56,139 bases of DNA from NCBI GenBank assembly GCA_001825035.1, contig MHUO01000006.1:19444-75582 (forward strand), read 5' to 3'. Every line of letters begins with the position of its first letter. The first letter of the stretch is position 1. Made by a program: the position numbers and the translations under genes. Positions 8,688 to 56,139 of the stretch are shown in pieces. Below the pieces are notes generated by a model. It saw only the letters and a program-made list of their open reading frames with translations. It was not told where the DNA came from and made no database searches. This DNA comes from Candidatus Wildermuthbacteria bacterium RIFOXYD1_FULL_50_12. Its GTDB lineage: Bacteria > Patescibacteriota > Minisyncoccia > Minisyncoccales > UBA10102.

Positions 8688-8690
8688 GCC

Positions 8691-8948: not shown

Positions 8949-8951
8949 GCC

Positions 8952-9191: not shown

Positions 9192-9197
9192 AGCTCA

Positions 9198-9203
9198 ATT
9201 ATA
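9198..9203 (-). promoter_or_regulatory. Extended -10 box of the first toxin-antitoxin module
   Basis: Minus-strand TATGCTATAAT is an extended -10 (TG, one base, TATAAT). The hexamer ends 6 nt before the antitoxin ATG, so transcription would begin at or next to the start codon. The box overlaps the last codons of the kinase gene. Confidence 0.65.
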
Positions 9204-10191
9204 GCATAGTTTTCTTTATCTGCAATGTGCCGTATTTTGTGGGAGAATCGGATTTTTTAAGCAAACCTTTGCTGGCGCCCCATTGCGTGAGAACTCCGGT
9301 CGCGTTTGCCGAAGCGAATTGAATGGCGTATTCAATGTCTCCCGGCTTTTTGATGAGCGCCGCGACAAGGCCGGAACCAAAAGCGTCGCCCGCTCCCGTG
9401 CGATCCACCACGCGCTTTAAGGGCAGCACACCCGAGGACCATCTCGTTTTCCCGTCGGAAACTTCCACTCCCTTCGCTCCCCGCGTCATAATCACCAAAC
9501 CCCTCACCCATTTGTCCAATTTTGAAAAAATCTTTTCCCGTTCCTCATACAGTTCTCCCGTTACGTAACTGGCCTCCTCCTGATTGACGATAAACACATC
9601 GATATCATACAAATAGGGCAAAATCCGCTTTTTGTCTTCAAGCTGGGTCTTGCCCGGATTCCACGCGACTTTTATGTTGTTGCGGTCGGCATATCCAATG
9701 ATTTCGGGAACAAGATCTGCCGATTCTCCTCCCAAATGATTAAGATATATCCACTTGGTCTCTGCCAATTTCTTCCATGGAATATCGGACTTGCGCAAAT
9801 GCCATTCGGCGCCCCCGTAAGATAGAATCGTTCTCCCCCTTTTTCCGGTCGTGAGAATAATTGAACAGGCGGTATTGCCTTTCTTGTCAACAATCAAAAA
9901 ATCGCGAGCAATACCCTTTTCTTGAAAATAATCGCGGAGAGAGTGACCTGCAGAATCATCACCCACCACCGTGAGCGCTCCCACTTTCAATCCTTGGTTT
10001 GCAAAAGTGATTGCCGTGTTCACCGCTCCCCCGCCGGTGAAAGATTTGAGATCCTCAATATACAGCTTGGATCCCAAGGACATCGCGAGCGCCTCGCCGG
10101 TCTTAAACACCTTGGTTTTCAGCACTTTGAAATCCCGACTCTGCACAAACACATCTCTCACCGCAGACCCTATTGTGATTACGTCAAACAT
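9199..10191 (-). CDS. PfkB-family carbohydrate/nucleoside kinase
   Basis: A 330-residue ATP-dependent kinase of the ribokinase family. The N-terminal signature GGGAVNTAITFANQGLKVG (about 53-71) binds the sugar. The C-terminal signature DRTGAGDAFGSGLVAAL (about 263-279) holds the catalytic Asp and anion hole. The substrate cannot be read from sequence: a sugar, a sugar phosphate or a nucleoside is possible. It follows the split transketolase by 8 nt in the same direction, which fits a role in pentose or ribose metabolism. Confidence 0.88.
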   Translation of the reverse strand: MFDVITIGSAVRDVFVQSRDFKVLKTKVFKTGEALAMSLGSKLYIEDLKSFTGGGAVNTAITFANQGLKVGALTVVGDDSAGHSLRDYFQEKGIARDFLIVDKKGNTACSIILTTGKRGRTILSYGGAEWHLRKSDIPWKKLAETKWIYLNHLGGESADLVPEIIGYADRNNIKVAWNPGKTQLEDKKRILPYLYDIDVFIVNQEEASYVTGELYEEREKIFSKLDKWVRGLVIMTRGAKGVEVSDGKTRWSSGVLPLKRVVDRTGAGDAFGSGLVAALIKKPGDIEYAIQFASANATGVLTQWGASKGLLKKSDSPTKYGTLQIKKTML

Positions 10192-10199
10192 ACGTTAAC

Positions 10200-11204
10200 T
10201 CATCTCTTACGGCGCAAGGCCCTTTTTACTGCTTGAATAATATACTTTGCAGTGAGACCAAACGCTTCTAAAAGCTCATCGGGTTTTCCCGACTCGCCGT
10301 AGCGATCTTGGACACCGATCATTTCTACTGGCACGGGGAAATTCTTTGCCAACATTTCAACCACCGCGCTTCCCATGCCACCGGCAACCTGATGTTCCTC
10401 CACGGTTACTACCACTCTGGTTTTGCGCACCGAGGCAAGAATCGTTTTTTGATCCAAGGGTTTTATGGTGTGATTGTTAATCACTTCCGCCGAAATCCCC
10501 TGTTTTTGGAGTTTACTTGCGGCGAGTAATGCCTCGTAGAGCAAGGGGCCGCTTGCAATAATTGTTACACCTGCCTGCGCAGGCAGGTCTTTCCCTTGCC
10601 AGAATATCTCTGCTTTTCCGAATTTGAACGGCGTTTTTTCTGTGGTGATTACTGGCGTGGCTTCTCTGGCAAGACGAATGTACACGGGCCATTCAATCTC
10701 TGCCGCGGCGGCGGTTGCTTTCTTTGCTTCAATCGCGTCGCAAGGATATATCACTCGCATATTCGGCATTACGCGCATTAAAGCAATGTCTTCCAACGCC
10801 TGATGAGTGGCGCCATCCGGGCCCACAGAAATTCCGGCGTGAGCTCCTCCGATTTTCACATTGACGTCGTTCAGGGCAATAGTCGTTCGAATCTGCTCAT
10901 TGTTGCGCCCCGGGGAAAATGTTGCGTAAGAAGAAATAAACGGGACTTTTCCAGCCAAAGCCATGCCGGCAGCCAAAGACGCCATATTCTGTTCTGCCAC
11001 GCCAACCTCAACGAATCTTTCCGGAAATTTCTTCTGGAAGTATTCTGACCTCGTTGACTCTGACAAATCCGCGCACAGCACCACCACATTAGGATTCTTT
11101 TCTCCCGCAATAACCAAACCTTCCCCATAACCGTTTCTTGTCGGGGTTTTTTTAACGTCTTTTGCAAAAACCTCTGGCGCCAAATATGCTTTGGGGTTGA
11201 CCAT
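10200..11204 (-). CDS. Transketolase, C-terminal subunit
   Basis: Pyrimidine-binding and C-terminal half of a split transketolase, about 334 residues. Motifs include GVAEQNMASLAAGMALAGKVPF (with the catalytic Glu), the substrate loop HAGISVGPDGATHQALED, and TVEEHQVAGGMGSAV near the end. The ATG at 11202-11204 (MVNPKAYLAPEVF) begins 2 nt after the N-subunit stop; the longer frame upstream lies inside the partner gene. A 20-bp palindrome (10569-10588) adds LPAQAG in frame in the linker before VTIIASGPLLYEAL. With the N-subunit it moves two-carbon units between sugar phosphates. Confidence 0.92.
   Translation of the reverse strand: MVNPKAYLAPEVFAKDVKKTPTRNGYGEGLVIAGEKNPNVVVLCADLSESTRSEYFQKKFPERFVEVGVAEQNMASLAAGMALAGKVPFISSYATFSPGRNNEQIRTTIALNDVNVKIGGAHAGISVGPDGATHQALEDIALMRVMPNMRVIYPCDAIEAKKATAAAAEIEWPVYIRLAREATPVITTEKTPFKFGKAEIFWQGKDLPAQAGVTIIASGPLLYEALLAASKLQKQGISAEVINNHTIKPLDQKTILASVRKTRVVVTVEEHQVAGGMGSAVVEMLAKNFPVPVEMIGVQDRYGESGKPDELLEAFGLTAKYIIQAVKRALRRKR
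10569..10588. repeat. Perfect 20-bp palindrome inside transketolase C-subunit
   Basis: ACCTGCCTGCGCAGGCAGGT is a perfect inverted repeat, read in frame as PAQAG. Near-identical cores occur at 19866-19883, 19962-19979 and 20034-20050 in an unrelated gene. Confidence 0.75.
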
Positions 11205-11206
11205 AT

Positions 11207-12067
11207 TTATTCTCGTATCCCTGTGATCTTTACGCCTATCGCCCTTAATTCGCGAAGGGCGGTTTTTGCTTCTTCGGGTTTTGGCGGCTTTCCATGCCAT
11301 TCAAATTTGTTCTCCATAAAACTCACTCCCTTGCCTGGAATGGTATGCGCGATAATGCAAGTCGGCTTTTCCTGGGTCGCCTTTGCCTGCGAGCAGGCGT
11401 CAATGATTTCTTCAATGTTATGCCCGTCAATTTCTATCACATTCCAGTTGAATGCTTCGTACTTTGCTCGCAAGGGTTCCAAAGGCATTATATCCTCCAC
11501 ATACCCATCAATCTGAATATTATTGCGGTCAATGATTCCCGTGAGATTGTTGAGCTTGTTTTTCCCCGCGAACATCGCGGCTTCCCACGTCTGCCCCGCT
11601 TCCTGCTCTCCGTCTGACATCGCGCAAAACACTCTCCAATTTTTCTTATCAATATACTTTGCCACATACGCCATGCCTGCGGCCTGCGACAAACCAGAGC
11701 CCAAGGGCCCGGATGTAGTTTCAACTCCGGGCAATTTTTTTCTTTCCGGGTGTCCTTGCAATCGAGACCCAAATTTTCTCAAGGTTTTTAACTCCTCAAG
11801 CGGAAAGTAACCAGCCCTTGCCATCGCAGCATATCGGACAGGACAAATGTGCCCATTCGACAAAATCAGGCGATCCCGCTCCTCCCAATCAGGGTTTTTC
11901 GGGTCGTGGTTCATTACCGCGAAATACAGCGCAGTAAATACATCTGCCATGCCCAAAGGCCCAGCTGAATGCCCAGACCCTGCCTCTAAGAGCATCCTTA
12001 TGATATCCTGCCGTATCTCATTTGCGATTTTGTCTAACTCCTGTAGCGAATACTGCTTTTTTGCCAT
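11207..12067 (-). CDS. Transketolase, N-terminal (thiamine-PP binding) subunit
   Basis: About 286 residues carrying the pyrophosphate-binding half. Visible are AGSGHSAGPLGMADVFTALYF, the SGPLGSGLSQAAGMA loop, and SDGEQEAGQTWEAAMFAGKNKLNNLTGIIDRNN, which contains the GDG-like metal/ThDP motif (here SDGE...DRNN). The ATG at 12065-12067 (MAKKQYSLQELDKIAN) fits the family start; a frame to 12106 adds residues with no counterpart. A TATAAT lies about 20 nt upstream. Together with rpe, rpiB and the PfkB kinase nearby it suggests a non-oxidative pentose-phosphate route to nucleotides. Confidence 0.92.
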   Translation of the reverse strand: MAKKQYSLQELDKIANEIRQDIIRMLLEAGSGHSAGPLGMADVFTALYFAVMNHDPKNPDWEERDRLILSNGHICPVRYAAMARAGYFPLEELKTLRKFGSRLQGHPERKKLPGVETTSGPLGSGLSQAAGMAYVAKYIDKKNWRVFCAMSDGEQEAGQTWEAAMFAGKNKLNNLTGIIDRNNIQIDGYVEDIMPLEPLRAKYEAFNWNVIEIDGHNIEEIIDACSQAKATQEKPTCIIAHTIPGKGVSFMENKFEWHGKPPKPEEAKTALRELRAIGVKITGIRE

Positions 12068-12086
12068 AAATGGAATAAGTTCTCCT

Positions 12087-12092
12087 ATTATA
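12087..12092 (-). promoter_or_regulatory. Candidate -10 box before split transketolase
   Basis: Minus-strand TATAAT followed by AGGAGAA, a Shine-Dalgarno-like run that is farther than usual from the ATG at 12067. A short GC hairpin (CTCCCC/GGGGAG, 12099-12116) precedes it but lacks a U-run. No clear -35 was found. Confidence 0.45.
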
Positions 12093-12155
12093 CCAAATCT
12101 CCCCATTTTGGGGGAGGTTAGATATTAACAGATATTCGTCTCTTAGATTGACTTT

Positions 12156-13304
12156 CTATCCTGGACCCCACACATTTTCACCCTCAAATTTCTTATCCCC
12201 TAAGTAATTTCTGAATATTTCATATCTTGGTTCTTCCAAGTTTGGAGAAAAGACAGGTGGTTGGTCAATCAGCATACCACATTCTTGGGGTGATTTTGGT
12301 ACAGACCAATTTGTTCTGAAAAATCTCTCATCGTATTTCTGGCTGTATATGTAAAATTCTATTCTGCATCCGGTGCACGTTCCCCCACACCCAGATGAAG
12401 CCCAGTATACTTCGTCTATTCCATCCTTATCGATATCTATAATTTTGGGTTTCTCGTAAATATGACCAGAAAATCCGTCATTCCACACCTGATGTTTCTC
12501 TTTATCCAAAATATAAACGGTATGGCTTTCTCCGGGGTATTTTTGATCACATACCACCAGCGTCCCCTTGCCCTGCGCATCAACAAGCTGTATTGGAGCG
12601 GTCCAAGCTAAGCTATACTGAGGGTTCTCTCGGCAGACGGAATCGAATGTACTCACAAACCGAAATGTGGAGAGGATCTGGCGGAATAGTTTCCTTGAGG
12701 ATTCTGTGCTTTCAGAAAGAGTCACAAACATTGCTACCGTACCGTCTTTAATGTCGGCTTCAGCTATCGCCTTTTGGCCTTTTCCCCAATCGATAATAAA
12801 ATTAATTTCGTCTCCTTCTAAAATCTCACATCTTTCATTCTCGCGATAGGCGCCGCAGAAAGACACGCCCAGGACTGCGCGGTTTGCAAACGTAAGCGTC
12901 ATAAACGGCTCTCCTTTCTCATCGTTAACTGTAGTACGATCCTCAAATTCAATCGTGTCCCACTTATCAGGATAATCAAATTCAAACCCAAACTCCTCAT
13001 TGCGGTAGGTTTGCCAGGTTGCTGTTTCGTTTGTTCGAGATTCTTTTGGCACGCATATACCTCTTGCGCCAGGAAGAGGATCAATTTTTACGCATTCAGA
13101 ATTATCTGAACATTGCATATCTTCGATGCCTCCGCATTCTATTGCATCAGTAGGTTCTATCTTTTTGTTCGCTTGTTGTAATTCTTCTCTGGGTGCATTC
13201 GCAATTTTCAACAGCAAAATCCCGCCAATCGTGACGGTACCGGCGACAAGCATCACGATAAGAAGCAGTTTGATTTCGGGTTTAAAGTCTTGGAATGGAT
13301 TCAT
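12156..13304 (-). CDS. Anchored paralog 2 (WQTY domain plus DxDxDG module)
   Basis: A 382-residue protein with a membrane helix near residues 11-32 and the signature WQTYRNEEFGFEFDYPDKW near 98-116. The domain ends with ILSTFRFVS. The C-terminal part has DIDKDGIDEVYWASSGCGG, an EF-hand-like loop followed by Cys residues, matching paralog 1 in order and spacing. Its first four bases overlap the end of paralog 3 (13301-13304), so the two are co-transcribed. No enzyme motif is visible; an extracytoplasmic structural or binding role is inferred. Confidence 0.75.
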   Translation of the reverse strand: MNPFQDFKPEIKLLLIVMLVAGTVTIGGILLLKIANAPREELQQANKKIEPTDAIECGGIEDMQCSDNSECVKIDPLPGARGICVPKESRTNETATWQTYRNEEFGFEFDYPDKWDTIEFEDRTTVNDEKGEPFMTLTFANRAVLGVSFCGAYRENERCEILEGDEINFIIDWGKGQKAIAEADIKDGTVAMFVTLSESTESSRKLFRQILSTFRFVSTFDSVCRENPQYSLAWTAPIQLVDAQGKGTLVVCDQKYPGESHTVYILDKEKHQVWNDGFSGHIYEKPKIIDIDKDGIDEVYWASSGCGGTCTGCRIEFYIYSQKYDERFFRTNWSVPKSPQECGMLIDQPPVFSPNLEEPRYEIFRNYLGDKKFEGENVWGPG

Positions 13305-14407
13305 ATTCTAGGGTTTTGCACTTCTTTCGCACAAACAAAATCCGTAGTCGTACGAGGATCGGTCGTCGAACTGGGAGTTTTTTCACCCCTGGTCACATTA
13401 TCGTACTTTCCAACGCAACTATAACAGATGATTGGATCAGGAGACGAACAAACCTTATACGAGCATGGCACATTACTACCACATCCTAGAACTTCCCAAT
13501 TCCATTGAGCTTGAGAAGTTAGTTCCACAAACCGAAACGTGGAGAGGATTTGGTTAAAGATTTCTCTTGAGACAGTAATTCTAGAAAAACGAAAGTATAC
13601 ATCCGACCGACAGAATTCAAGTTCATCTTTTTCGCTGTTTCGTTCAAAAAATAACTTTACATCATCGCCACTAAGATTCGTGTAGTTAGAGCAATCAAAA
13701 TATCCGTCAGGAGCAACGTACATGTTCATTTCGCCCTCCTCTCTAGTTAGGTCGACCCCTTCGGAGCCAAAAGCAAAAATCTGGGGATTAGCGCCAGCGC
13801 GAAATTCTGTTTGTCCCGGCCCTAATCTACCCGGGAAACTACTTTCAATCTTCCAATCTTCCGGATACCTCACCTCAAACCCAAACTCCTCGTTGCGGTA
13901 GGTTTGCCAGGTGGAAATATCAATTTCAAGGGCCTGTTGTTTGCAGGACTGGACAAATAGAGATCCGTATTCTGGATCGTTTCGACTAGGCATTGAATCG
14001 CAAAGATCAGGACGTTTGAGCTTTTTGGCAAGCTCTCGCAAGCATCCATCTTTAGGACTTACACCGCTCGGAAAATGTTCTTCCGATAGGGTAAGGCAGT
14101 AGTCGACATCGCTTTTCGCAACCGCATAATCTATTTTGCAGTATTCGCGGGCTTGGTTAGGTCTCACCCCAAAATCCTGAATGGTATGGTCTTTGTTGAT
14201 TTTATTACAGAGTTCTGGATTATTTGTTTCGATAGCTCTTGCAAATGCTTTTTCGTATGTCCATTCTTCTTGGAATGGGATAAGTGGCTCTCCTGGATGC
14301 ACTTCTTGTCTATATATAACCCATCCCAAAACAAGGATAAGAAGCGAGATTCCTCCGAGTACCGCAACTTTCCAATTTATCTTTACAAAAGGATTGAATA
14401 AAAGCAT
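13301..14407 (-). CDS. Anchored paralog 3 (WQTY domain, Cys-rich flanks)
   Basis: A 368-residue protein. The anchor is KINWKVAVLGGISLLILVLG. Residues about 45-160 form a helical Cys-containing region (NPELCNKINKDHTI, DYCLTLSEEHFPSG, KRPDLCDSMPSRND) resembling repeated units. The signature WQTYRNEEFGFEVRYPEDW follows, then ILSTFRFVE. The last 70 residues are Cys-rich (VLGCGSNVPCSYKVCSS, ICYSCVGKYDN), probably disulfide-bonded outside the cell. It sits 3 nt downstream of a toxin gene and shares a 4-nt overlap with paralog 2. Function unknown. Confidence 0.75.
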   Translation of the reverse strand: MLLFNPFVKINWKVAVLGGISLLILVLGWVIYRQEVHPGEPLIPFQEEWTYEKAFARAIETNNPELCNKINKDHTIQDFGVRPNQAREYCKIDYAVAKSDVDYCLTLSEEHFPSGVSPKDGCLRELAKKLKRPDLCDSMPSRNDPEYGSLFVQSCKQQALEIDISTWQTYRNEEFGFEVRYPEDWKIESSFPGRLGPGQTEFRAGANPQIFAFGSEGVDLTREEGEMNMYVAPDGYFDCSNYTNLSGDDVKLFFERNSEKDELEFCRSDVYFRFSRITVSREIFNQILSTFRFVELTSQAQWNWEVLGCGSNVPCSYKVCSSPDPIICYSCVGKYDNVTRGEKTPSSTTDPRTTTDFVCAKEVQNPRI

Positions 14408-14410
14408 GCC

Positions 14411-14662
14411 TTAGAACTTTTTATACGTTTTCTCTGAACGACGCTCGATTGCTAAAATAAAAATATCCGCATCGGTCTTGCGATAGATAATGCGGATGTC
14501 GCCTTTGCGGACACGAAAAATATCATCTCGTTCTTTTAGTCTCTTTATATCCAAACCCTCAAATTGCTCTTGTGTAATTTTCCTTAAAATCGCTCGCGTT
14601 GCCTTGCGTTCTTTTGGCGTGAGTTTCCGCAACGCCTTTTCAGTCTTGTCCATAAAAATCAA
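14411..14662 (-). CDS. RelE/ParE-superfamily toxin, second module
   Basis: An 83-residue basic protein with DIFRVRKGDIRIIYRKTDADI and the C-terminal AIERRSEKTYKKF, the core strand and basic tail of RelE-like mRNA interferases. The ATG at 14660-14662 overlaps the antitoxin stop by 4 nt; MDKTEKALRKL three codons later is an alternative start. Not closely similar to the toxin at 8691-8948, so the two modules are not a recent duplication. Confidence 0.82.
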   Translation of the reverse strand: MIFMDKTEKALRKLTPKERKATRAILRKITQEQFEGLDIKRLKERDDIFRVRKGDIRIIYRKTDADIFILAIERRSEKTYKKF

Positions 14663-14871
14663 AGGCGAGAGAGCAGTTCCTTTATCGGCACCCCGCCCTT
14701 CCGGATCTTGGTGAAATCAACTACTTCTTCCCATTCTCCTCCCTCGACAGGAGAAATACGAAAAAGCGGTTTGGAGCGCCGCATCACAACCAAACTTTCC
14801 CCCCGTTTCACCCGGGCTGTATATTTCTCAATGTTCTGCCGCAATTCTTTTAAACCAATAATATGTTCCAT
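14659..14871 (-). CDS. Phd/YefM-like antitoxin
   Basis: A 70-residue protein starting MEHIIGLKELRQNIEKYTARV and continuing KRGESLVVMRRSKPLFRISP, the classic Phd/YefM DNA-binding fold, with a C-terminal region for toxin binding. I place the start at the ATG 14869-14871: a longer frame uses a TTG that lies inside the -35 box. Such antitoxins repress their own promoter, and a near-perfect 22-bp palindrome covers this promoter. Confidence 0.85.
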   Translation of the reverse strand: MEHIIGLKELRQNIEKYTARVKRGESLVVMRRSKPLFRISPVEGGEWEEVVDFTKIRKGGVPIKELLSRL

Positions 14872-14878
14872 ATACTTT

Positions 14879-14907
14879 AAGTTTACCTTAAGATAAACTT
14901 TAGTCAA
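14879..14907 (-). promoter_or_regulatory. Toxin-antitoxin promoter with palindromic operator
   Basis: On the minus strand TTGACT (14902-14907), a 16-nt spacer and TAAACT (14880-14885) form a promoter. A 22-bp near-palindrome, arms AAGTTTA and TAAACTT around CTTAAG, fills 14879-14900, covering spacer and -10. That is where an autorepressing antitoxin should bind. The predicted transcription start is next to the ATG at 14871, so the mRNA would be leaderless. Confidence 0.75.
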
Positions 14908-14917
14908 TCCCCCCCCC

Positions 14918-14959
14918 TTATTCTGTAAACCGAAATGCGGAGAGAATGACGAGCAAGAT
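14918..14959 (-). pseudogene. Remnant of a WQTY-family C-terminal motif
   Basis: Just past the stop of paralog 4, one frame reads ILLVILSAFRFTE then stop, the degraded end of the ILSTFRFVE motif shared by the paralogs. At DNA level the stretch AAACCGAAATGCGGAGAG (plus strand) nearly matches the corresponding stretch in paralogs 1-3. It is followed by a run of C and the antitoxin promoter, so it probably marks an old recombination or insertion boundary. Confidence 0.6.
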
Positions 14960-14966
14960 GTATGTA

Positions 14967-16640
14967 CTACAGATTAAAGAATGGGGAATCGCGCAAAAAT
15001 TCTATCTCTTGCGGCAGCAATCCAACTCCCGGGTAATTCCCGTGCCATTGCATAATGCTTTGGTCAGCATATTGCTCTCCGGGATGGGGAAGCCCGAATG
15101 CATGGCCGAGTTCATGGGCAGGGGTTCCCTTCGGGACTCCTCCGCCGCACTGCCATCCTGAACTATACACACAGGGAATACCCCACTCATTAGGAACGCC
15201 GGAAATCGGTTCCAACACCCAATCGCTCACCACCGCCCATCCGCAACTGTTTCCGTCTGAATTCGCGCCCGCGTATCCTCCGCCTCCTGCGCCAAAAACC
15301 AGATACGCCGTATCTGCCGCCCAGCAAGGTCCCCCCGCGTAATACGCCGCCGCTCCACCATAAATAGCTTCATTCATGTACTGGGCCCAGTTGCCTTCAA
15401 ACAGAGAAAGATTGTTTATGCATTCCTGACGGGGATTCTCTCCGCAACGCATTTCAAGATAATTCCGAAATGGATGACGTATTACCTCAAGCGGAACCAT
15501 CTGAAAGGTAGCGCCTACCTGGTCAAAATACCACTGCCGAAGTTCCGCAAGGTATCCTTGCACCGCGGTTTCATACAAGGGAATCATTGCTTTGTCCGCC
15601 GGATACACCAAGTATGGCTTCACGATAAAAACCATCGGCTCCTCGATTTGAGTAACAACCGGCTCCCGTTCCTCTTCTTGGGAGTTCTGCTTTTTGACAT
15701 TATTTGTCTCCTGCGAAAGAGTTTGGACTTCTGTTTGCCTATCTTGCATCCCCTCTGATTCTATAAACCGAAAAGTGGAAAGGATTTGGCGGAAAAATGA
15801 TTTCACATCCCGGCTTGGCGAATGTAAAATATCAATTACAACCATCCCGCCTTCTGATTTCAGAATTTCGGCTCTCGATCTAGTGAGAGCGCCTTCCGTT
15901 TCAATATCCCAGTCAATGAGAAATTCTACATTATCAAAGGTGAATCTCTCGCAACGAGAATCGTTTGGATACGCTTCGCAATAACTTATTCCTCTTGCAT
16001 CGAGCGTACTTTGTGAAATATATCCAAACTGTAAAAAATAACTCTCCCCTGTCAGCTTGCCCAAAAAAGAAGTATACGCTTCTCCCGTATTCTTTTGCAA
16101 AACCAGAACAGATGGAAATTTCACCTCAAAGCCGAAGTCCTCGTTGCGGTAGGTCTGCCAGTTTATAGTTTCGGCTGTTTTTAATTCAACTTCTGAAATA
16201 GTCCAGATTTTTCCTTCACCAGGAATTGGCTGGATTAAAGTCACGACATACGTTTTATCCTCATGCTTTACGTCAGTAGAAAATTCATTTATGCTTTTGC
16301 CGAATTCTGCTTGGATGGAGGTATCGGGAGTATCTAAAGTTTCAAGGTCTTTTTCAGGATCAAATCCATACTGCGCGATTTCAGCTCTTAAAACCATAAT
16401 CGGATTTAATCTCCATGGCTGATGACCTTCGTCTACCGAAGATTGAATTCCGCTTATCAAGTTATAGTTTATTTCCACCTGGCCTATTTTAATCTCATTT
16501 TTTGCTTCGTTTTGAATATCTAATTTAGGTAGATTTGCACTTTCATCTTGCAAGGACAGTAAAACCCCTCCTCCGACGATAACAACTAGAGCAATTACAA
16601 TTGCAAGAAATTTCCAGTTTGTTTTGGCGGAGAGATCCAT
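14967..16640 (-). CDS. Anchored paralog 4 with metzincin-like metalloprotease domain
   Basis: A 557-residue protein. The anchor is KTNWKFLAIVIALVVIVGGG; the signature WQTYRNEDFGFEVKFPS lies near 167-183 and ILSTFRFIE near 290. The C-terminal 230 residues form a zinc protease domain: HELGHAFGLPHP matches the metzincin HExxHxxGxxH motif, and SIMQW about 10 residues later is a plausible Met-turn. A Gly/Ala/Tyr-rich stretch with Cys pairs precedes the active site. The protease would face outside, tethered to the membrane. This is the only paralog with an evident enzyme domain. The exact peptidase family is not assigned. Confidence 0.85.
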   Translation of the reverse strand: MDLSAKTNWKFLAIVIALVVIVGGGVLLSLQDESANLPKLDIQNEAKNEIKIGQVEINYNLISGIQSSVDEGHQPWRLNPIMVLRAEIAQYGFDPEKDLETLDTPDTSIQAEFGKSINEFSTDVKHEDKTYVVTLIQPIPGEGKIWTISEVELKTAETINWQTYRNEDFGFEVKFPSVLVLQKNTGEAYTSFLGKLTGESYFLQFGYISQSTLDARGISYCEAYPNDSRCERFTFDNVEFLIDWDIETEGALTRSRAEILKSEGGMVVIDILHSPSRDVKSFFRQILSTFRFIESEGMQDRQTEVQTLSQETNNVKKQNSQEEEREPVVTQIEEPMVFIVKPYLVYPADKAMIPLYETAVQGYLAELRQWYFDQVGATFQMVPLEVIRHPFRNYLEMRCGENPRQECINNLSLFEGNWAQYMNEAIYGGAAAYYAGGPCWAADTAYLVFGAGGGGYAGANSDGNSCGWAVVSDWVLEPISGVPNEWGIPCVYSSGWQCGGGVPKGTPAHELGHAFGLPHPGEQYADQSIMQWHGNYPGVGLLPQEIEFLRDSPFFNL

Positions 16641-16652
16641 AGCGTCTTCTAG

Positions 16653-18365
16653 TTACTGAACATTTAATACGCCTGGCTCTTTCTGTAAAATTTCATCAAT
16701 ACTTTCTGAAAGATATTTATTTTGAGTAACTCCCGCCGGAATCTTTACGTATTCCTCTCCATTCCAATCATAGAGATAGAACTGTAACCTACGCGCACAG
16801 CCGCAACAATAATCTGAAGGATTTTCTGACCAGCGACTATCTACCGTGATAATTCTAGTGGCCGAGCCATTTTCTCCGGCAAATTTAAATGGCCAACCCT
16901 GACAGCCTGAAGCAATCATCAAGGGCCCTTCTATTATCGAAAATCTATCGACTTGCCAAACAAGAAGATATAGCTGTTCCGTATAACCTGAGCCCATGGC
17001 ATAAGATATGCCGGTTATAGCAATTGCGTTTCTTCCGTCGCCCCAAAAATCAGATACGAATCTAGCGGAATCAACTTCATTCCGACCAGCAAAAGTGTAG
17101 CCAAACTCTTCTTGGAGGCAATCTTCGGTACCAGAAAAAACTTTTAGCATAATTGGCTTGGATCTTTCTCCAACGCTACTAATTTCTCTGTAGATTCCAA
17201 CGATTTCACTTGTTTGGTCTTTATTCAGATCGATTTCGAATTCCAGATTGTAAGCTTGCTCATTCCCTCCCCAATCGTTTTTGGCAAGTTCGTAGCCAAA
17301 GAAATCTGTCGGTGAACAAACTCCGATCTTATCTATAAATTGGAATGAGGAAATGATCCGTTCAAAAATTTGGTCAAAAGAAGCAGCTTTTGGATCATTT
17401 TCCCAATATGCACCAAAAACTTTTACAAAGCCACCTGTGGGATAGCTAAATCTCTTTGTGGTGTAGACAATATTAATATTGTTCGCAAGCTGAATGGTTG
17501 TTTTCCCCTCAAAACTCTTAGGCTCTGATGCTCGAGCAAAAGTAACCCATGCATTACCTTTTGGAGGAATTCCGCCAACGCTGGTACCTGGAATCGAGCC
17601 AATAATTCCTGGAATATACTCAGATTTATCAACAGTGGCGATCTCTGTGACAGGAGTATCTTTCCCAAAAGCGAAATCATAATCACGAGTAATCTTCCAA
17701 TCTTTCGGATACCTCACCTCAAACCCGTACTCCTCATTGCGGTAGGTTTGCCAGGTGGAGGTATCGATAGAGATCTTCTCAGTGTTTTGATTCGCAATTG
17801 CAATACCGCCTTCCACGAAATTGATCTCAACTTTCAGTTTCTCTCCTTCCTTTATTGAAATGGGAACGCATCCAAAGAAACGAACCGGAGCTTCGCCAGC
17901 CTGCTGCTGCGTGGCATTTGTGAGACAGAGCATAAACTCTCCTTCTTCCGAAATGATCGAGAACCTTCCAGATGAATTTAAAGAAGAAGACGCAATAATA
18001 TATTGGGAGGCGACTTCTTCTGAAATACCTCCCTGGAGATACCCAACGCTCTCCTCCGGAGTCGGTAGCTCAAATTCCTGAAGAAAAGACGCGAGGCGAT
18101 TTGCTGGGAATGTCACAAGAGCGCCTTGTGTTTGCGGAAAGTCGGGAATCGTCGCAATGTCGTTTTTATAGGTTACGTTGCCTTCGACAATACCTTGGCC
18201 GGGCAAAACAGCGGACGTAGGAGCGGGTGTTAGAGCGACTGGAGGAGTTTGAGCGACTGGTTCTGGCTGCATGGTCTTCAACAACAAGACCCCGGCAACG
18301 AGGATAACGGCAACGAGTGCCACGATGAAGAATAATTTGATTTCGAATTTGAAGTCGTGAAACAT
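16653..18365 (-). CDS. Anchored paralog 5 (WQTY domain, long C-terminal region)
   Basis: About 570 residues from the ATG at 18363-18365 (MFHDFKFEIKLFFIVALVAV); a longer frame would run into rpe. The anchor helix resembles that of paralog 2. Residues about 55-195 are a beta-rich domain with GNVTYKNDIATIPDFPQTQG, then WQTYRNEEYGFEVRYPKDW and a degenerate ISSFQFIDK. The C-terminal part contains two DxNxD-like segments (DLNKDQTSEIVGIYRE, DFWGDGRNAIAITG) and DYCCGCARRLQFYLYDW, echoing the Cys motif of paralog 2. It starts 2 nt after the rpe stop, so it shares that transcript. Function unknown. Confidence 0.75.
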   Translation of the reverse strand: MFHDFKFEIKLFFIVALVAVILVAGVLLLKTMQPEPVAQTPPVALTPAPTSAVLPGQGIVEGNVTYKNDIATIPDFPQTQGALVTFPANRLASFLQEFELPTPEESVGYLQGGISEEVASQYIIASSSLNSSGRFSIISEEGEFMLCLTNATQQQAGEAPVRFFGCVPISIKEGEKLKVEINFVEGGIAIANQNTEKISIDTSTWQTYRNEEYGFEVRYPKDWKITRDYDFAFGKDTPVTEIATVDKSEYIPGIIGSIPGTSVGGIPPKGNAWVTFARASEPKSFEGKTTIQLANNINIVYTTKRFSYPTGGFVKVFGAYWENDPKAASFDQIFERIISSFQFIDKIGVCSPTDFFGYELAKNDWGGNEQAYNLEFEIDLNKDQTSEIVGIYREISSVGERSKPIMLKVFSGTEDCLQEEFGYTFAGRNEVDSARFVSDFWGDGRNAIAITGISYAMGSGYTEQLYLLVWQVDRFSIIEGPLMIASGCQGWPFKFAGENGSATRIITVDSRWSENPSDYCCGCARRLQFYLYDWNGEEYVKIPAGVTQNKYLSESIDEILQKEPGVLNVQ

Positions 18366-18367
18366 GA

Positions 18368-19000
18368 TTATGAAATCATCTCTTCTAGATGCTTGAGGGC
18401 GGCCACGGGATCTGAAGTTTTCATCACGGCGCTGCCGGCACACGCGTAATCAACGCCGGCACCAAACGCTTGTTTCACTGTCTGTTCATTGATCCCCCCA
18501 TCGATACCTATCAAAACATCTTGTTTGAGTCGCCGAATTTCAGAAACTTTTGAAAGGACGTCTGGAATAAATTCCTGCTGCTGAAATCCAGGATTCACGC
18601 CCATCACGAGCAACGCATCGAGCTTTTCAATGTAGGACGCAAGTTTTAAAGCCGGGGTTGGCGGATTCACGGCAATTTCTTTTTGAAAACCGTACTCTTC
18701 CATTTTTTGGAGAACGACTTCGGGGCTATCGACTGCCTCCGCATGAAAGATGACGCGCTTGGCTCCGATGCCGCTGCAATCCTCCAAATATTTTTCGGGA
18801 TGCTCCACCATCAGGTGGATTTCCAGATGAAAAAATTGGGCAGCTTCCCCCAATTCAAATAAGTTCGCTGAGGTATTGGGCACGAATTTCCCGTCCATAA
18901 TATCAATGTGCAGCCATTTTGTGTGCCCCTTGAGAATCTCCATGTTTTCGCGAAGCTCTTCGGGATTTGCGGTCAGGATGGCAGGAATAATCCTCTGCAT
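18368..19000 (-). CDS. rpe: Ribulose-phosphate 3-epimerase
   Basis: A 210-residue TIM-barrel enzyme converting ribulose-5-P to xylulose-5-P. Metal and catalytic motifs are present: LHIDIMDGKFVPN (His and Asp), LEIHLMVEHPEKYL, ALLVMGVNPGFQQQEFIP and IGIDGGINEQTVKQAFGAGVDYACAGSAV. Length is normal. It begins 1 nt after the rpiB stop, so the two are co-transcribed. Confidence 0.95.
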   Translation of the reverse strand: MQRIIPAILTANPEELRENMEILKGHTKWLHIDIMDGKFVPNTSANLFELGEAAQFFHLEIHLMVEHPEKYLEDCSGIGAKRVIFHAEAVDSPEVVLQKMEEYGFQKEIAVNPPTPALKLASYIEKLDALLVMGVNPGFQQQEFIPDVLSKVSEIRRLKQDVLIGIDGGINEQTVKQAFGAGVDYACAGSAVMKTSDPVAALKHLEEMIS

Positions 19001-19762: not shown

Positions 19763-21634
19763 CTATCGAGAAAAGCGCAAAAACCTGTATATCCCAAATC
19801 CAAAAATAAGCGCAGCGGCAAAGAGGAGAAGCATATTGCTTCGGATAAAACCGAGGGTATTAGCTCCTGCCTGCGCAGGCAGGCCTGCCGCGACTTCCGC
19901 CCGAAGCGCTTGCGACCTGGTCTCTTCAACACCGACAACAAGCGAAGCAGCGAACTCGGTTTGCCCGCCTGCGCGGGCAGGCTCATTTTCGCCCTGCTCT
20001 TCCGTTTCTTGCGCAAGCGCTTCCTGAATTTGTCCGCCTGCGCGGGCGAGCTCGTCTTGCGCTTGCTGTGCGGCAAGCGAAGCAAGCTGGCGCTCAATTT
20101 CTCTCGCTTCTTCCTCAACGCGCAAAAGTTCCGCTTGAATCTCCCGCAGAAGCTCTTGGCGAGACGCCCCCTCTCTCTGCCCTTCCGTGAAAATCTCTTC
20201 TTCCCCAACCATCTGCGGAGACGAACTCACGTTGCTCATGTTACTTCCGACTGTGCTCTCCGTCTGCTCCTGCGCCGACTCTTGGTCCTGAAAAACTGAA
20301 ATTGAATAAACCGGAAAACTCTTACCGCTCAAGGCAATCACCGCGTCTGGGGTGGCGCCTTTGTTGTTCCACTCGGAAGTCCCGGGCGCTACCCACCAGA
20401 ACCCGCCGTCCTCGTCCTGCAGTGAAAGAAGGTGCTCAATCGGATTTTCTGGGCTCTTTGTCCAAGCTGTCGGATCCTCCCCAAGCTTATGAATCGCCAT
20501 GATAACCCATGCATCGCTATTGCCATCCGAGTCCGTACCGAATGGGCTTTGAGGGTCGTAGGGAAACCCGCCGTCCAGATTCTGCGCTTCTTTCAAATAC
20601 TGCCTTGCCAGCTGTATAGCGTTGTCGGTTTCCGTCATACCGGTCTCCAGCAAAGCCATAATGGCGGCTGCCGTGTCGTTTGTGTCGCTCGTGCCTCCCG
20701 CGTCCCATGCCCAGCCGCCATCCGCATTCTGATCCTGCAAAAGGAACGCTTTTGAATTTTGGATAACAGGATCGCTTGCGGGCACTCCAGCGGACCGCAA
20801 CGCGAGAATCCCCCAGATATCGTCGTTCAAAAGCGAGGGGTCGCCGAGCTGCGTATCGTCAGTAAAACTCTTCAGTTTCTCCACAAAATCCTCTTCAGGA
20901 AAGGTTCGCGGATCCTGGCCAGTTGCCGTTATCGCGAGTATCGGCTTTGCGTAGGAAATGGCGCTGTCGCCAAAAAACGTCTTGAGAAAAGAGATGTCTG
21001 CGCTTTGTCCCACAGCTATGAACGCCATTACAATATCTGGCGAGAGTTCCTGATTCTGAAGAAACGCTACTGCTTTTACGAGAACCACATTTATATCAAC
21101 AACCGGCGCAGGATCACTCCCTCCCGAGCCGCCGCTGCCGTTTCCCCCACTCCCACCGGCTTCCTCGCTGTCTTCATCCTCGTTTGCATCGTCGCTCTCA
21201 TCATCCTGAATGCCCTCTCCCTCCTCTTCGGACTCTCCCACTCCCTCTTCCTCTTGATTCTCCTGCTCTTCCTCCTCCAACTCCTCCTGTCCTTCTTCTA
21301 CTACCTCTTCCTCATCCTCTTCCAAAAGCTCAACATTGACCCACGCGCATCCCTGTTCTTTAATGTCTTGCAATCGCTTCTGGCCGATGCCAGATACGCT
21401 AATCAAGTCATCGACCGACCCAAAGGGTCTTCCTTCAATAATCCTCTCAGCGATAGTCGGACCCACTCCCGGCAATAGTTTGAGATCTTCCTTGCTCGCT
21501 GTGTTGATTTCAATAGAGTTCGGCTCGCAGACCGACTCTTCCGCGTATGCCCCGCCGCTGGAAAGTAAAAGCACAAAGATTGCGGTACAGGTACATACGA
21601 AAAAGCGTTTGCGCAAATTAGTTTGCTTTTTCAT
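19763..21634 (-). CDS. Anchored ComEA-HhH / prenyltransferase-barrel protein
   Basis: About 623 residues. A signal peptide ends near GGAYAEES. A ComEA-type helix-hairpin-helix follows (IEINTASKEDLKLLPGVGP). Then come an extremely acidic linker, a Gly/Ser spacer, and an alpha/alpha barrel with prenyltransferase/squalene-cyclase-like repeats (LLQDQNADGGWAWDAGG, AQNLDGGFPYDP, LQDEDGGFWWVAPG). A coiled coil, a C-terminal membrane helix and basic residues end the protein. The barrel is of the kind found in transcobalamin and intrinsic factor. It overlaps the DUF4430 gene by 17 nt, sharing a cobalamin-riboswitch transcript, so cobalamin capture is inferred. Three palindromic repeats lie in frame near the C-terminus. 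The ATG at 21632-21634 is preferred over a TTG 12 nt earlier. Confidence 0.8.
   Translation of the reverse strand: MKKQTNLRKRFFVCTCTAIFVLLLSSGGAYAEESVCEPNSIEINTASKEDLKLLPGVGPTIAERIIEGRPFGSVDDLISVSGIGQKRLQDIKEQGCAWVNVELLEEDEEEVVEEGQEELEEEEQENQEEEGVGESEEEGEGIQDDESDDANEDEDSEEAGGSGGNGSGGSGGSDPAPVVDINVVLVKAVAFLQNQELSPDIVMAFIAVGQSADISFLKTFFGDSAISYAKPILAITATGQDPRTFPEEDFVEKLKSFTDDTQLGDPSLLNDDIWGILALRSAGVPASDPVIQNSKAFLLQDQNADGGWAWDAGGTSDTNDTAAAIMALLETGMTETDNAIQLARQYLKEAQNLDGGFPYDPQSPFGTDSDGNSDAWVIMAIHKLGEDPTAWTKSPENPIEHLLSLQDEDGGFWWVAPGTSEWNNKGATPDAVIALSGKSFPVYSISVFQDQESAQEQTESTVGSNMSNVSSSPQMVGEEEIFTEGQREGASRQELLREIQAELLRVEEEAREIERQLASLAAQQAQDELARAGGQIQEALAQETEEQGENEPARAGGQTEFAASLVVGVEETRSQALRAEVAAGLPAQAGANTLGFIRSNMLLLFAAALIFGFGIYRFLRFSR
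19866..19883. repeat. GC palindrome in barrel-protein gene, copy 1
   Basis: CCTGCCTGCGCAGGCAGG, a perfect 18-bp palindrome, encodes LPAQAG in frame. Its core equals that at 10569-10588. Confidence 0.75.
19962..19979. repeat. GC palindrome in barrel-protein gene, copy 2
   Basis: TGCCCGCCTGCGCGGGCA has 7-bp arms around CTGC and encodes PARAGG in frame. It is a variant of copy 1. Confidence 0.65.
20034..20050. repeat. GC palindrome in barrel-protein gene, copy 3
   Basis: CCGCCTGCGCGGGCGAG, a less perfect copy of the same element, encodes LARAGG in frame. Three copies within 190 bases alter the tail between coiled coil and membrane anchor. Confidence 0.6.
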
Positions 21635-22172
21635 ATCTCCATTCAATAATATCGTTAGGTTGTACTATGTATTGCGAAGCGCCGACCGAAGCTGTCTCGC
21701 CGTTTATATAATAAATCCAATACGTCCTCTCTTTGGGATTTTGGACAAGACCGTTTATCTCTTCCACGAAAAATCCCAGCCCAGGAAACTGTTTCCCCTT
21801 AAAAGAAAAACCGCGGCTATCCTGCAGGAACTTCATAAGCTCCAGGGCCGTGGTGCCCTCCGAAACCCACGCTTCATACTCGTGTCCAGCCACAACAAGC
21901 ATTGTGTAGACCGGGCCGAGCTTCTCTTGCGCAAGTTCTTCAGTCCTGCTTCCATCCTCCGCAAAAACGGCTTGCTCAGGCGCCTCTGTCTTATCTACGA
22001 ATTCTGCAGTTTTCTCTTCTCTATCATCGCCGGCAACCAAGCGAAACGTCTCACTTTCTTCATGGACAACGGGGGGTATAGTATTTCCGCTTAAAAACGA
22101 CGCTGCACCCAGCGCAAAGCCAAAAGATCCTCCTGTCGCAAGCAAAATAATAAGAAACTTTCGCGTTTTCAT
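21618..22172 (-). CDS. DUF4430 (transcobalamin-like C-terminal domain) protein
   Basis: About 184 residues from the ATG at 22170-22172 (MKTRKFLIILLATGGSFGF), with a signal peptide or anchor. The C-terminal 95 residues match DUF4430: YEAWVSEGTTALELMKFLQD, KQFPGLGFFVEEINGLVQNP, TYWIYYINGETASVGAS and PNDIIEWRYEK. In transcobalamin this fold follows the alpha barrel and closes over cobalamin; here the barrel is encoded in the next gene, overlapping by 17 nt. A cobalamin riboswitch and terminator lie just upstream. Surface cobalamin binding is inferred from these two facts; DUF4430 alone also occurs in adhesion proteins. Confidence 0.85.
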   Translation of the reverse strand: MKTRKFLIILLATGGSFGFALGAASFLSGNTIPPVVHEESETFRLVAGDDREEKTAEFVDKTEAPEQAVFAEDGSRTEELAQEKLGPVYTMLVVAGHEYEAWVSEGTTALELMKFLQDSRGFSFKGKQFPGLGFFVEEINGLVQNPKERTYWIYYINGETASVGASQYIVQPNDIIEWRYEKAN

Positions 22173-22176
22173 AGAG

Positions 22177-22204
22177 AAACAAAAATCTCCTGGGGGCAGG
22201 AGAT
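22177..22204 (-). terminator. Riboswitch expression-platform terminator
   Basis: Minus strand: ATCTCCTG, loop CCCC, CAGGAGAT, then TTTTGTTT. The 8-bp perfect stem ends a few bases before the DUF4430 start codon. An intrinsic terminator between an aptamer and its gene fits transcriptional OFF control by the ligand. Confidence 0.85.
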
Positions 22205-22382
22205 GCACGCTTCGCAAAATTCGGCATGCGGTTAAAGCTAGCGTGAACCCCGCTCCCCCTCTCGAGAAGCGATAATTCAATGGCTATAAGGTAATGGTGA
22301 GTCGACCGGGCTTTAACCGTTCCGGGGGAGCACAGGATTTACGCCTGTTTCCTCTCACGATTATCGTTTTGGAAGAACGTTA
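22205..22382 (-). ncRNA. Compact cobalamin riboswitch (Cbl-II-like)
   Basis: The leader RNA carries the conserved core GAGAGGAAACAGGCGTAAAT followed by CCTGTGCTCCCCCGGAACGG. P3 is GTGAG (22354-22358) with CTCAC (22297-22301). P5 is ACAGG (22344-22348) with CCTGT (22332-22336) closing the GCGTAAATC loop. P6 is CCGG (22322-22325) with CCGG (22306-22309) around AACGGTTAAAG. The AACGGTTA segment and short P6 resemble the compact env8-type class. Peripheral helices of the long class are missing. Two crossing long-range helices link core and downstream region: GCTCCCCC (22324-22331) with GGGGGAGC (22252-22259), and CGGTTAAAGC (22310-22319) with GCTTTAACCG (22229-22238). These are likely switching elements. 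Confidence 0.87.
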
Positions 22383-22388
22383 TAATTC

Positions 22389-22417
22389 TTTGTATCTTCC
22401 CTCTGCCCCTCAGTCAA
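22389..22417 (-). promoter_or_regulatory. Promoter of the cobalamin-responsive operon
   Basis: TTGACT (22412-22417), a 17-nt spacer and TACAAA (22389-22394) on the minus strand lie just after the mgtC stop. The predicted start near 22382 places the whole aptamer in the leader, so the operon is transcribed separately from mgtC. Confidence 0.7.
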
Positions 22418-31115: not shown

Positions 31116-33293
31116 TTAGAGTTTCTTGCGGCGGAGGAGAGTGGCGTTGACGGCGACAATTACGGTGGAGGCAGACATAAAAATGGCGGCAAGCGCCGGC
31201 TCCAAAACAATTCCTTTAAAGTAAAGGACTCCTGCGGCCAGGGGCAGAGCCACCAGATTGTATCCCGTTGCCCAAAACAGATTCTGCAGCATTTTACTAA
31301 ACGTGAGTTTCGACAAGTGAATGATTTTAGGAATGTCGCGCGGGTCGTTTTTTACCAGAATAATCCCAGCTGATTCAATTGCCACGTTGGTGCCGGCTCC
31401 AATAGCAATGCCCAAGTCCGCCTGCGTTAAAGCTGGGGCGTCGTTTACGCCATCGCCCACGAAAGCAACGCGCACTCCCCGCGCTTGCAGCGCTTTTACT
31501 TTTTCAGCTTTTTGGTCCGGCAAAACTCTCGCAAAATACTCATCAATCCCGAGTTCTCCGGCGACCCATTTGGCAACATCTTCCGAATCGCCGGTAACCA
31601 TAGCAACTCTCATGCCCTGCGCGTGGAGCATGTCTGCTGCCTCCCTTGATTCCTCTCGAATAACATCGGCTAAAGCGATGGCTCCTGCCAGCCGATTCCC
31701 TGCGAGAACATATACGACTGTTTTGCCCTGAGCTTCCAACTCGGCAATTTTGGAAGCGAGAATTTCTTCAAGGCGCGCGCCCCGTTCCCTGAGCAATACA
31801 TCGCTTCCCACCAGCACTTCTTGCCCGTCAACAGAACCCTTTGCGCCTTTCCCGGGTATGCGCTGAAAGTCCTGCGCGTTCACCAATTGAATTTTCTTGT
31901 CCTGCGCATGGCTCACGATTGCTTTTGCTATAGCATGTTCTGAATGCCGATTCACCGAAGCTCCCAGCCGCAAAATCTCATCCTCCTTGAAGCCCTGTGA
32001 CTGGAGAACCGCGTCTACTCCAAACTCACCCTTGGTAAGCGTGCCTGTCTTATCAAATAGCACAACGTCAACGTTGCGCGCGGCCTCCAAGGCTAGCCGC
32101 TGCTTTACGAGAAATCCATTCTGAGCCGCAAGATTGGTAGAAATGGAAGCTACAAGAGGCACTGCTAAACCCAACGCATGCGGACAGGCAATCACGAGCA
32201 CCGCGACAAGACGCGCTACTGCAAATGCCGCCTCTTGATCGCTAAACAGCAGCCAAGCAAGAAGAGTACTGACTCCACCGGTCACGGCGACAACCGTAAG
32301 ATAGAACGCGGCGCGGTCAGAAAGCATCTGAAGGCGTGACTTGGACGCTGCAGCTTCTTGCACCAAGCGCATCACTCCAGCCAGAAAGGTGTTTTCCCCT
32401 ATTTTGAGCACTTCTACCTCCAAACTTCCGTCTCCGTTACTGGTTCCCGCAATCACTTCGGCGCCCGGATTCTTGGCCACGAGCTTTGACTCTCCGGTAA
32501 CGATGGATTCATTGAGTTCTGACTTACCCTTAAGAACCTTCCCGTCCGCAGGAACTTTTGCTCCCGGCTTTACCAACATCACATCCCCTACCTTGAGCTC
32601 GGATATTTGGACCGTCTTCGTTCCGTTTTCAACCACAAGTTCTGCAGTATCAGGCAGGAGCTTTGCCAGCTCCCGCAGCGCTCCCCGCGCCCCTTGCACT
32701 GCTTTCATTTCAAGCCAATGGCCCAAAAGCATAATCGTCACCAATGTCGCAAGTTCCCAAAAAAGCGGTTTTGCGTTCGCGAAGACGGCGTAGACGCTCC
32801 AGAGATAGGCAGCGGTAACAGCAAGCGCAATGAGCGTCATCATACCAGGCAGGCGCGCCTTGAGTTCTCTGGCAGCTCCCATCAAAAACACCCATCCCCC
32901 GTAGAAAAACACGGCAGATCCCAGAAGTAATTGAAGGTACCCGGATCCGAAAAAACGCGGGGCTTCCCATCCCAAAAAGAGTTTGGGCAATTCAGAATAC
33001 GCGAGAATAGGAACGGTCAAAGCCAAACTCACCCAGAATTTGCGGAAAAACATCTGAGTGGAATGCCCCTCGTGTTTACCTGCCCCGTGGTCGGCGTGAG
33101 CCGACTTTACGGGGTCGTGCGTCTCGTGATTTTTCTCTTTACTCTTTTCACCCGGCACTAAATTCATCCCGCACTCCGGGCACATCCCGGGGCTTTCCCT
33201 ACGCACTTCAGGATGCATCGGACACGTATAGACGACCCCAACTTGACCCCCACGATTATCGCCGTGATTTTTATGGCCCTTACAACAGTTCAT
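31116..33293 (-). CDS. copB: CopB-type copper-translocating P-type ATPase
   Basis: A 725-residue P1B ATPase. The N-terminus has a Cys-pair metal module (YTCPMHPEVRRESPGMCPEC), then a His-rich stretch (HETHDPVKSAHADHG) in place of a CxxC domain. The transport site is IACPHALGLAVP, the CPH form of the CopB class (Cu+ or Cu2+ efflux). Also present are the phosphorylation motif DKTGTLTKGE, TGES, HP-loop SEHAIAKAI and GDGVNDAPAL. It is the last gene of an eight-gene run starting with csoR, so copper induction is expected. Confidence 0.94.
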   Translation of the reverse strand: MNCCKGHKNHGDNRGGQVGVVYTCPMHPEVRRESPGMCPECGMNLVPGEKSKEKNHETHDPVKSAHADHGAGKHEGHSTQMFFRKFWVSLALTVPILAYSELPKLFLGWEAPRFFGSGYLQLLLGSAVFFYGGWVFLMGAARELKARLPGMMTLIALAVTAAYLWSVYAVFANAKPLFWELATLVTIMLLGHWLEMKAVQGARGALRELAKLLPDTAELVVENGTKTVQISELKVGDVMLVKPGAKVPADGKVLKGKSELNESIVTGESKLVAKNPGAEVIAGTSNGDGSLEVEVLKIGENTFLAGVMRLVQEAAASKSRLQMLSDRAAFYLTVVAVTGGVSTLLAWLLFSDQEAAFAVARLVAVLVIACPHALGLAVPLVASISTNLAAQNGFLVKQRLALEAARNVDVVLFDKTGTLTKGEFGVDAVLQSQGFKEDEILRLGASVNRHSEHAIAKAIVSHAQDKKIQLVNAQDFQRIPGKGAKGSVDGQEVLVGSDVLLRERGARLEEILASKIAELEAQGKTVVYVLAGNRLAGAIALADVIREESREAADMLHAQGMRVAMVTGDSEDVAKWVAGELGIDEYFARVLPDQKAEKVKALQARGVRVAFVGDGVNDAPALTQADLGIAIGAGTNVAIESAGIILVKNDPRDIPKIIHLSKLTFSKMLQNLFWATGYNLVALPLAAGVLYFKGIVLEPALAAIFMSASTVIVAVNATLLRRKKL

Positions 33294-33317
33294 ACTTTTT
33301 TCATTATTTCATGCCAT

Positions 33318-34830: not shown

Positions 34831-34831
34831 G

Positions 34832-35736: not shown

Positions 35737-35739
35737 GAT

Positions 35740-35910: not shown

Positions 35911-35924
35911 GATCTATATGAGGG

Positions 35925-36134: not shown

Positions 36135-36155
36135 ATTATATCGTATGGAAATACC

Positions 36156-36431: not shown

Positions 36432-36440
36432 ACTATCTCC

Positions 36441-36469: not shown

Positions 36470-36472
36470 CCC

Positions 36473-56062: not shown

Positions 56063-56139
56063 AGGATGATGAAATAGTCCATCCCTTTATGAAAATAGAG
56101 GTCTGATGTAATCCCTTGGTCGTAGGTTCGAATCCTACC

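Follow-up and report, generated by a model that had tools for sequence, protein, structure and literature searches.

A cobalamin riboswitch, a transcobalamin-like pair of surface proteins and the membrane family DUF6580 outline a predicted route of B12 acquisition in Patescibacteria

How might a bacterium with a reduced genome, and very probably without B12 synthesis of its own, obtain the cofactor on which its DNA synthesis depends? The question is raised by a locus of Candidatus Wildermuthbacteria bacterium RIFOXYD1_FULL_50_12, in which a cobalamin riboswitch precedes two overlapping genes: gene 1, coding for a DUF4430 protein (P0001), and gene 2, coding for an exported alpha/alpha toroid protein (P0002). 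The locus lies within a stretch of 56,139 nucleotides of contig MHUO01000006.1 (positions 19,444 to 75,582), hereafter the window, and its features are collected in Table 1. The source genome (G000; G-numbers denote genomes and L-numbers loci) measures 676,968 bp at a completeness of 98.8%. This small size (0.68 Mb) and the nearest named relatives, which are Patescibacteria, agree with the initial annotation, where the host was taken for a member of the candidate phyla radiation. Taken as a whole, the evidence makes it very likely that the locus is a cobalamin-repressible operon for B12 capture at the cell surface, coupled to import via DUF6580 without an energy-coupling factor (ECF) module, to adenosylation and to use by the ribonucleotide reductase NrdJ.

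Table 1. Features of the riboswitch-controlled locus (window coordinates)
Feature	Position	Strand	Basis or detail
AdoCbl-II (adenosylcobalamin-II; RF01689) cobalamin riboswitch aptamer	22370-22292	(-)	cmscan and context in relatives
Expression-platform segment	22275-22226	(-)	GGGGGAGC complementary to aptamer L5; GCUUUAACCG complementary to core CGGUUAAAGC
Intrinsic terminator hairpin ATCTCCTGCCCCCAGGAGAT, then TTTTG U-run	22204-22185	(-)	12 nt before gene 1 ATG
Gene 1, exported/N-anchored DUF4430 (transcobalamin-type beta-grasp) protein, 184 aa	22172-21618	(-)	PF14478
Gene 2, exported toroid protein, 623 aa	21634-19763	(-)	PF12836, PF13243, TIGR01259, transmembrane prediction

In a cmscan search, the aptamer matched the full RF01689 model (positions 1-81) with 37.4 bits, the gathering threshold being 36.5 and the E-value 2.7e-5 for the window as a whole. 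Taken alone, this score is marginal, just over threshold. I therefore asked whether the match is conserved, using a comparison set of 100 genomes of relatives that were scanned for RF01689, DUF4430, DUF6580 and EcfT. RF01689 was found at E<=0.01 in 18 of the 100 relatives, and 16 of the 18 matches lie upstream of a DUF4430 gene, a toroid gene or both; matches in G036 (23.6 bits, within coding sequence) and in G005 were not counted as support. The G005 leader (L080, G005:C7:82245-82349) is RF01689-like, carries a terminator and stands ahead of a gene for an unrelated 614-aa acidic protein, in a genome where NrdJ, DUF4430 and DUF6580 matches are all absent; it may be an orphan or relic riboswitch. 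A hairpin followed by a U-run comes after the aptamer in 13 of the 16 homologous leaders, compared with 2.0 expected from dinucleotide shuffles (6/16 against 0.5 when at least four G-C pairs are demanded), mostly 5-14 nt ahead of the start codon. In the window, the 3' arm of the hairpin also carries AGGAG. The leader thus has what is expected of an RF01689 member, an expression platform ahead of a B12-related gene, and both the cobalamin riboswitch and the terminator initially proposed are upheld. The promoter proposed with them is not established: a scan of the window gave a count of sites equal to chance, none of them directly upstream of the aptamer, and TTGACT-17-TACAAA was read by eye only. 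The literature search found no paper linking Patescibacteria with a cobalamin riboswitch.

The pairings within the expression platform are less uniform. A kissing interaction between L5 and the downstream segment reaches 9 bp in G000 and G016 and is elsewhere mostly no better than in shuffled sequences; since the close relative G016 alone shares it, this pairing is tentative. A decamer downstream of the aptamer and complementary to its core can form a 10-bp anti-aptamer helix in the window, none being seen by eye in G016. Nearest-neighbour energies, computed without ligand or tertiary contacts, favour the anti-aptamer over the aptamer by about 13-15 kcal/mol. In the minimum-energy fold the anti-aptamer helix coexists with the terminator, and aptamer and anti-aptamer folds both keep it. 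That the switch works in the OFF direction is suggested by the riboswitch class together with the terminator.

What does the riboswitch control? P0001 scores 65 bits with PF14478 (cut-off 23.8) and begins with a hydrophobic segment according to transmembrane and signal prediction; it is thus an exported protein of the transcobalamin clade of SLBB domains. A phmmer search of the PDB with P0001 retrieved human transcobalamin-1 (haptocorrin) at E=0.0011, and a plasmid search gave no match. Gene 2 overlaps gene 1 by 17 nt and encodes, in order, a signal peptide, a ComEA-like helix-hairpin-helix (HhH) domain (aa 40-93; PF12836, 54 bits; ComEA TIGR01259, 45.9 bits), an acidic linker, a toroid (about aa 180-440), a coiled coil and a C-terminal transmembrane segment. 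The toroid is of the squalene-hopene cyclase/prenyltransferase (SQHop) type with QW-like repeats and scores 36.7 bits with PF13243. A DUF4430 gene followed by an overlapping alpha/alpha toroid gene, and export with tethering to the surface, as the signal peptide and C-terminal transmembrane segment of P0002 and the N-terminal segment of P0001 indicate, were both correctly recognized at the outset; the HhH domain had been overlooked. The coding sequence of gene 2 also contains GC-rich palindromes, GCCTGCGC[A/G]GGC, at 19869-20047 (LPAQAG/ARAGG segments). Another lies at 10573-10584 in a transketolase gene, and their count in the window is not significant.

The consumer of the cofactor is encoded elsewhere in the genome. 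NrdJ of G000 scores 637.6 bits with TIGR02504 (cut-off 399.95) and is the sole PF02867 locus; it is the only ribonucleotide reductase of the genome, which bears out the earlier suggestion that the B12 consumer is a class II enzyme. On another contig (G000:C8:6451-10479, L110), nrdJ forms an operon nrdR-nrdJ-adenosyltransferase-DUF6580, in which the PduO-type adenosyltransferase (PF01923, 157 bits) and DUF6580 (PF20221, 148 bits) genes overlap slightly. It is because of this position on another contig that the membrane step was missing from the initial annotation. In the family searches of G000, BtuF, BtuC, EcfT/CbiQ, SbmA/BacA and CobS had no match, so that the search for a BtuFCD importer suggested with the first description of the locus was negative; EcfT (PF02361), the partner required of an ECF-type transporter, is missing in G000 as in 97 of the 100 genomes overall. 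As to nrdJ itself, frames of about 1,200-1,300 aa occur in G001, G002, G012 (L127, L111), G008 and G009; their match to TIGR02504 is interrupted, in some past profile position about 282 and in others past about 153, and they probably contain in-frame inteins at two different sites.

Could DUF6580 be the missing membrane step? Three lines of evidence point this way, the first being linkage. DUF4430 and DUF6580 co-occur in the 100 genomes (30/31 versus 5/69; Fisher p=3e-19) and outside the window's family (12/12 versus 2/63; p=3e-12), in tests that ignore phylogeny within the order and in which the genomes outside the family span more than 40 families. In 12 loci of relatives, DUF4430/toroid genes have DUF6580 as a conserved neighbour. 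A scan of GTDB genomes returned at least 585 relatives of DUF6580, 80 of which were kept, with a clear open reading frame in 74 loci; at 45 of the 74, a same-strand DUF4430, NrdJ, toroid or adenosyltransferase gene lies no more than three genes away, and the linked adenosyltransferases are of two unrelated types. Neighbours were tested in Bacteroidetes, Verrucomicrobia, Deltaproteobacteria and Ignavibacteriae. Genes for BtuB-like TonB receptors precede DUF6580 in seven loci (L146, L185, L189, L194, L197, L203, L207), BtuF-type genes lie near it in L146 and L197, and L176 has a gene for DUF4465, the BtuH family. An RF00174 riboswitch stands upstream of the DUF6580 operon in 7 of 13 non-Patescibacterial loci, where no other Rfam family matched; Patescibacterial DUF6580 loci carry RF01689 (L161, L187), RF01482 (L135, L140) or RF00174 (L164, L195).

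The second line is sequence: the DUF6580 profile has a single match in the PDB, chain A of 6FNP (6fnp_A), ECF-CbrT, at E=1.7e-4. The third is fold. The AlphaFold2 model of DUF6580 (predicted local distance difference test, pLDDT, 91.9; predicted template-modelling score, pTM, 0.85) has as its best Foldseek match BtuM with hydroxocobalamin (probability 1.00, TM-scores 0.52/0.56), and further matches are the S-components RibU (probability 0.97), then ThiT and PanT. Profile and fold are independent pointers to B12 S-components, and together they relate DUF6580 to the S-components of ECF-type transporters. The literature search found no paper naming DUF6580, although publication under another name is possible.

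These elements can be joined into a pathway. At low levels of cobalamin in the cell, the leader would let transcription through and both exported proteins would be made. The DUF4430 protein and the anchored toroid protein would each bind corrinoid and, as a complex, clamp it at the cell surface like the two domains of transcobalamin. The corrinoid would then be handed over to DUF6580, a solitary S-component-like membrane protein, which would bring it into the cell with neither an ECF module nor BtuCD. Inside, the PduO-type enzyme would adenosylate it, and NrdJ would use the product for DNA synthesis. With plentiful cobalamin, the aptamer would bind its ligand, the terminator would form and the binders would be switched off, closing a feedback loop.

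Several observations weigh against this pathway, the first of which concern the toroid. By sequence, it is nearer to the repeats of squalene-hopene cyclases than to animal transcobalamin, and its match to the latter is one of fold only. In the AlphaFold2 model of a fused relative (L140), pLDDT is mostly >90 for the toroid and low for the beta domain, so that the model does not show the cobalamin pocket which the two domains would enclose; haptocorrin and transcobalamin are among the Foldseek matches of L140, at a root-mean-square deviation of about 21 Å. In Foldseek, a relative's toroid matched not only haptocorrin and transcobalamin but equally terpene cyclases and farnesyltransferase, so that the toroid fold alone is no proof of a B12 role. 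Of the transcobalamin architecture first claimed for the pair, the beta-grasp DUF4430 and the toroid stand, while the resemblance of the toroid to transcobalamin is one of fold. Squalene-hopene cyclases being the best sequence matches, the toroid might instead be an exported enzyme of the terpene cyclase or prenyltransferase-like kind. I regard this as very improbable and have ruled out the terpene cyclase, since the DxDD catalytic motif of class II terpene cyclases occurs nowhere in P0002; the toroid is, besides, exported, membrane-anchored, under a cobalamin riboswitch and, in relatives, fused to DUF4430. It is this context, rather than the fold alone, that supports a B12 role.

The HhH domain, found in no other locus examined, is a further such point. 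Being of ComEA type, it would suit a gene 2 product that is a DNA receptor or wall-linked scaffold and merely shares the operon, the solo DUF4430 protein alone passing B12 to the membrane; many distant Patescibacteria do have a solo DUF4430 gene beside DUF6580 and no toroid. This explanation is improbable, because the HhH is confined to this genome among those loci and the toroid is the conserved part: in most relatives it is fused to DUF4430, and in G007, G038, G056 and G060 the riboswitch stands directly ahead of toroid-first genes.

The remaining points concern regulation and import. No antiterminator was identified among the folds computed for the window leader. The fold match to BtuM has a weak Foldseek E-value (0.1), and BtuM needs an invariant axial-ligand cysteine (PMC6072759), whereas no invariant or near-invariant cysteine is present in 73 DUF6580 sequences. 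Finally, CbrT without its ECF module did not support growth (PMC5997447). The operon with its surface binders and import through DUF6580 is nevertheless the reading retained here, and DUF6580 in G000 is probably a B12 importer. The wider proposal, which I hold to be likely though with less assurance than the pathway in G000, is that DUF6580 is a solitary S-component-type B12 permease of Patescibacteria and of many B12 scavengers without BtuCD or ECF, and that, in Patescibacteria, transcobalamin-like surface proteins under riboswitch control load it directly and it in turn supplies adenosyltransferase and NrdJ, which would make a complete minimal pathway.

The substrate might also be broader than B12: the pair could capture corrinoids generally (cobinamide, pseudo-B12 and other cobamides from a host or neighbours), with salvage chemistry beyond simple import. 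Cobinamide, like cobalamin, is a substrate of ECF-CbrT uptake (PMC5997447), and the DUF6580 operon of L197 includes a DUF71 (Diphthami_syn_2) gene, whose family has been connected with B12 salvage (PMC3541065). On the other hand, NrdJ and the adenosyltransferase need a complete cobamide, and G000, having no CobS match, would lack the usual route for completing cobinamide. General corrinoid capture is thus unlikely, if less so than the DNA receptor, and capture of B12 for NrdJ is preferred.

Is the gene pair one transcobalamin gene split in two, as the initial annotation had it? The usual order in the window's family is a solo DUF4430 gene 1 followed by an overlapping gene 2 encoding DUF4430, toroid and transmembrane segment. 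P0001 shares 45-56% identity with the relatives' solo DUF4430 proteins (E 1e-21 to 1e-39) and at most 40%, over short stretches, with toroid-fused DUF4430 domains (best E 4e-6). These values identify P0001 as the orthologue of the solo DUF4430 gene present in most relatives, not of the fused domain, and fission of one transcobalamin gene is ruled out. It follows that what the window lacks is the DUF4430 of gene 2, as does G016, whose gene 2 is likewise without it. In the window, the place of this N-terminal domain is taken by the HhH, and the second DUF4430 was apparently lost or replaced. A fused DUF4430 is likewise missing from two-gene arrangements in Ca. Magasanikbacteria (L134) and Levyibacteriota (L148). 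The animal order, toroid then DUF4430 in one chain, which the two genes of the window do not have, is found in seven relatives (L051, L063, L071, L072, L073, L078, L079), and relatives with this fusion often carry a solo DUF4430 gene too. Directly after the toroid-DUF4430 gene, in these seven loci and in L056, comes a gene for a small exported, transmembrane-anchored protein (about 170-200 aa), without a Pfam match in the two tested, which is possibly a third component of the surface complex.

Other features of the window deserve mention. A group I intron (RF00028, 101.6 bits) lies at 55839-56101 (+) beside an HNH-like open reading frame (55557-55910), and another group I intron was seen among tRNA genes in L128. 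A run of exported proteins at 7611-18443 (-) includes at least five paralogues with a (T/S)WQTYRNEEFGFEVRYP-type segment, one of which (14967-16640) has a metalloprotease-like HExxH end. The exported protein at 549-2174 (-) contains a Kazal-type inhibitor domain (PF00050, 43.7 bits), unusual for a Patescibacterium. A metal-resistance cluster at 31116-36596 (-) comprises a heavy-metal P-type ATPase with a heavy-metal-binding domain (HMBD), a DsbD-like protein and a probable CsoR-type regulator.

The riboswitch and the toroid/DUF4430 pair are of known kinds, here in an under-studied group, and they suggest at the genomic level how Patescibacteria with reduced genomes could come by a cofactor on which DNA synthesis depends. 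The larger consequence is a predicted function for the membrane family DUF6580, drawn from linkage, the CbrT sequence match and the BtuM fold, at a time when, for most prokaryotes, the proteins that carry B12 across the membrane still await identification (PMC6072759). The group of animal transcobalamin, intrinsic factor and haptocorrin shares with the window the combination of toroid and beta-grasp DUF4430, with a sequence match, and export; the window differs in its two chains, a toroid alike in fold only, the membrane anchor, the added HhH and riboswitch control. Bacteroides BtuG surface lipoproteins (PMC6143338) likewise capture B12 at the surface under riboswitch control, but are of another protein type and work with BtuB in the outer membrane. 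In the nrdJ-cbrS-cbrT-pduO cluster of Lactobacillus delbrueckii, the source of the demonstrated B12 transporter ECF-CbrT (PMC5997447), NrdJ, a PduO-type adenosyltransferase and a small membrane protein of S-component fold are likewise together, although CbrT needs an ECF module and none was found in G000. BtuM (PMC6072759) resembles the predicted DUF6580 permease as a solitary S-component-like B12 importer without an ECF module, and is its best fold match, but DUF6580 has no detectable sequence match to it and lacks its cysteine. Finally, bacterial proteins that combine toroid and SLBB domains, in both orders, were described by Burroughs et al. (2007, PMC1796856), who predicted that they scavenge B12. 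Their operons often hold a second SLBB gene, a paralogue, and CbiO/CbiQ-type transporter genes usually lie alongside; the initial statement that no B12 uptake gene was known in this form was therefore too strong. The window shares with those systems the signal peptides, the toroid and SLBB domains, the second SLBB gene and a host very probably without B12 synthesis, and departs from them in having DUF6580 and no CbiQ/EcfT match in the genome; riboswitches are not mentioned in that paper. What is new here is the Patescibacterial setting with its riboswitch, the missing CbiQ/EcfT, the HhH variant and the assignment of DUF6580.

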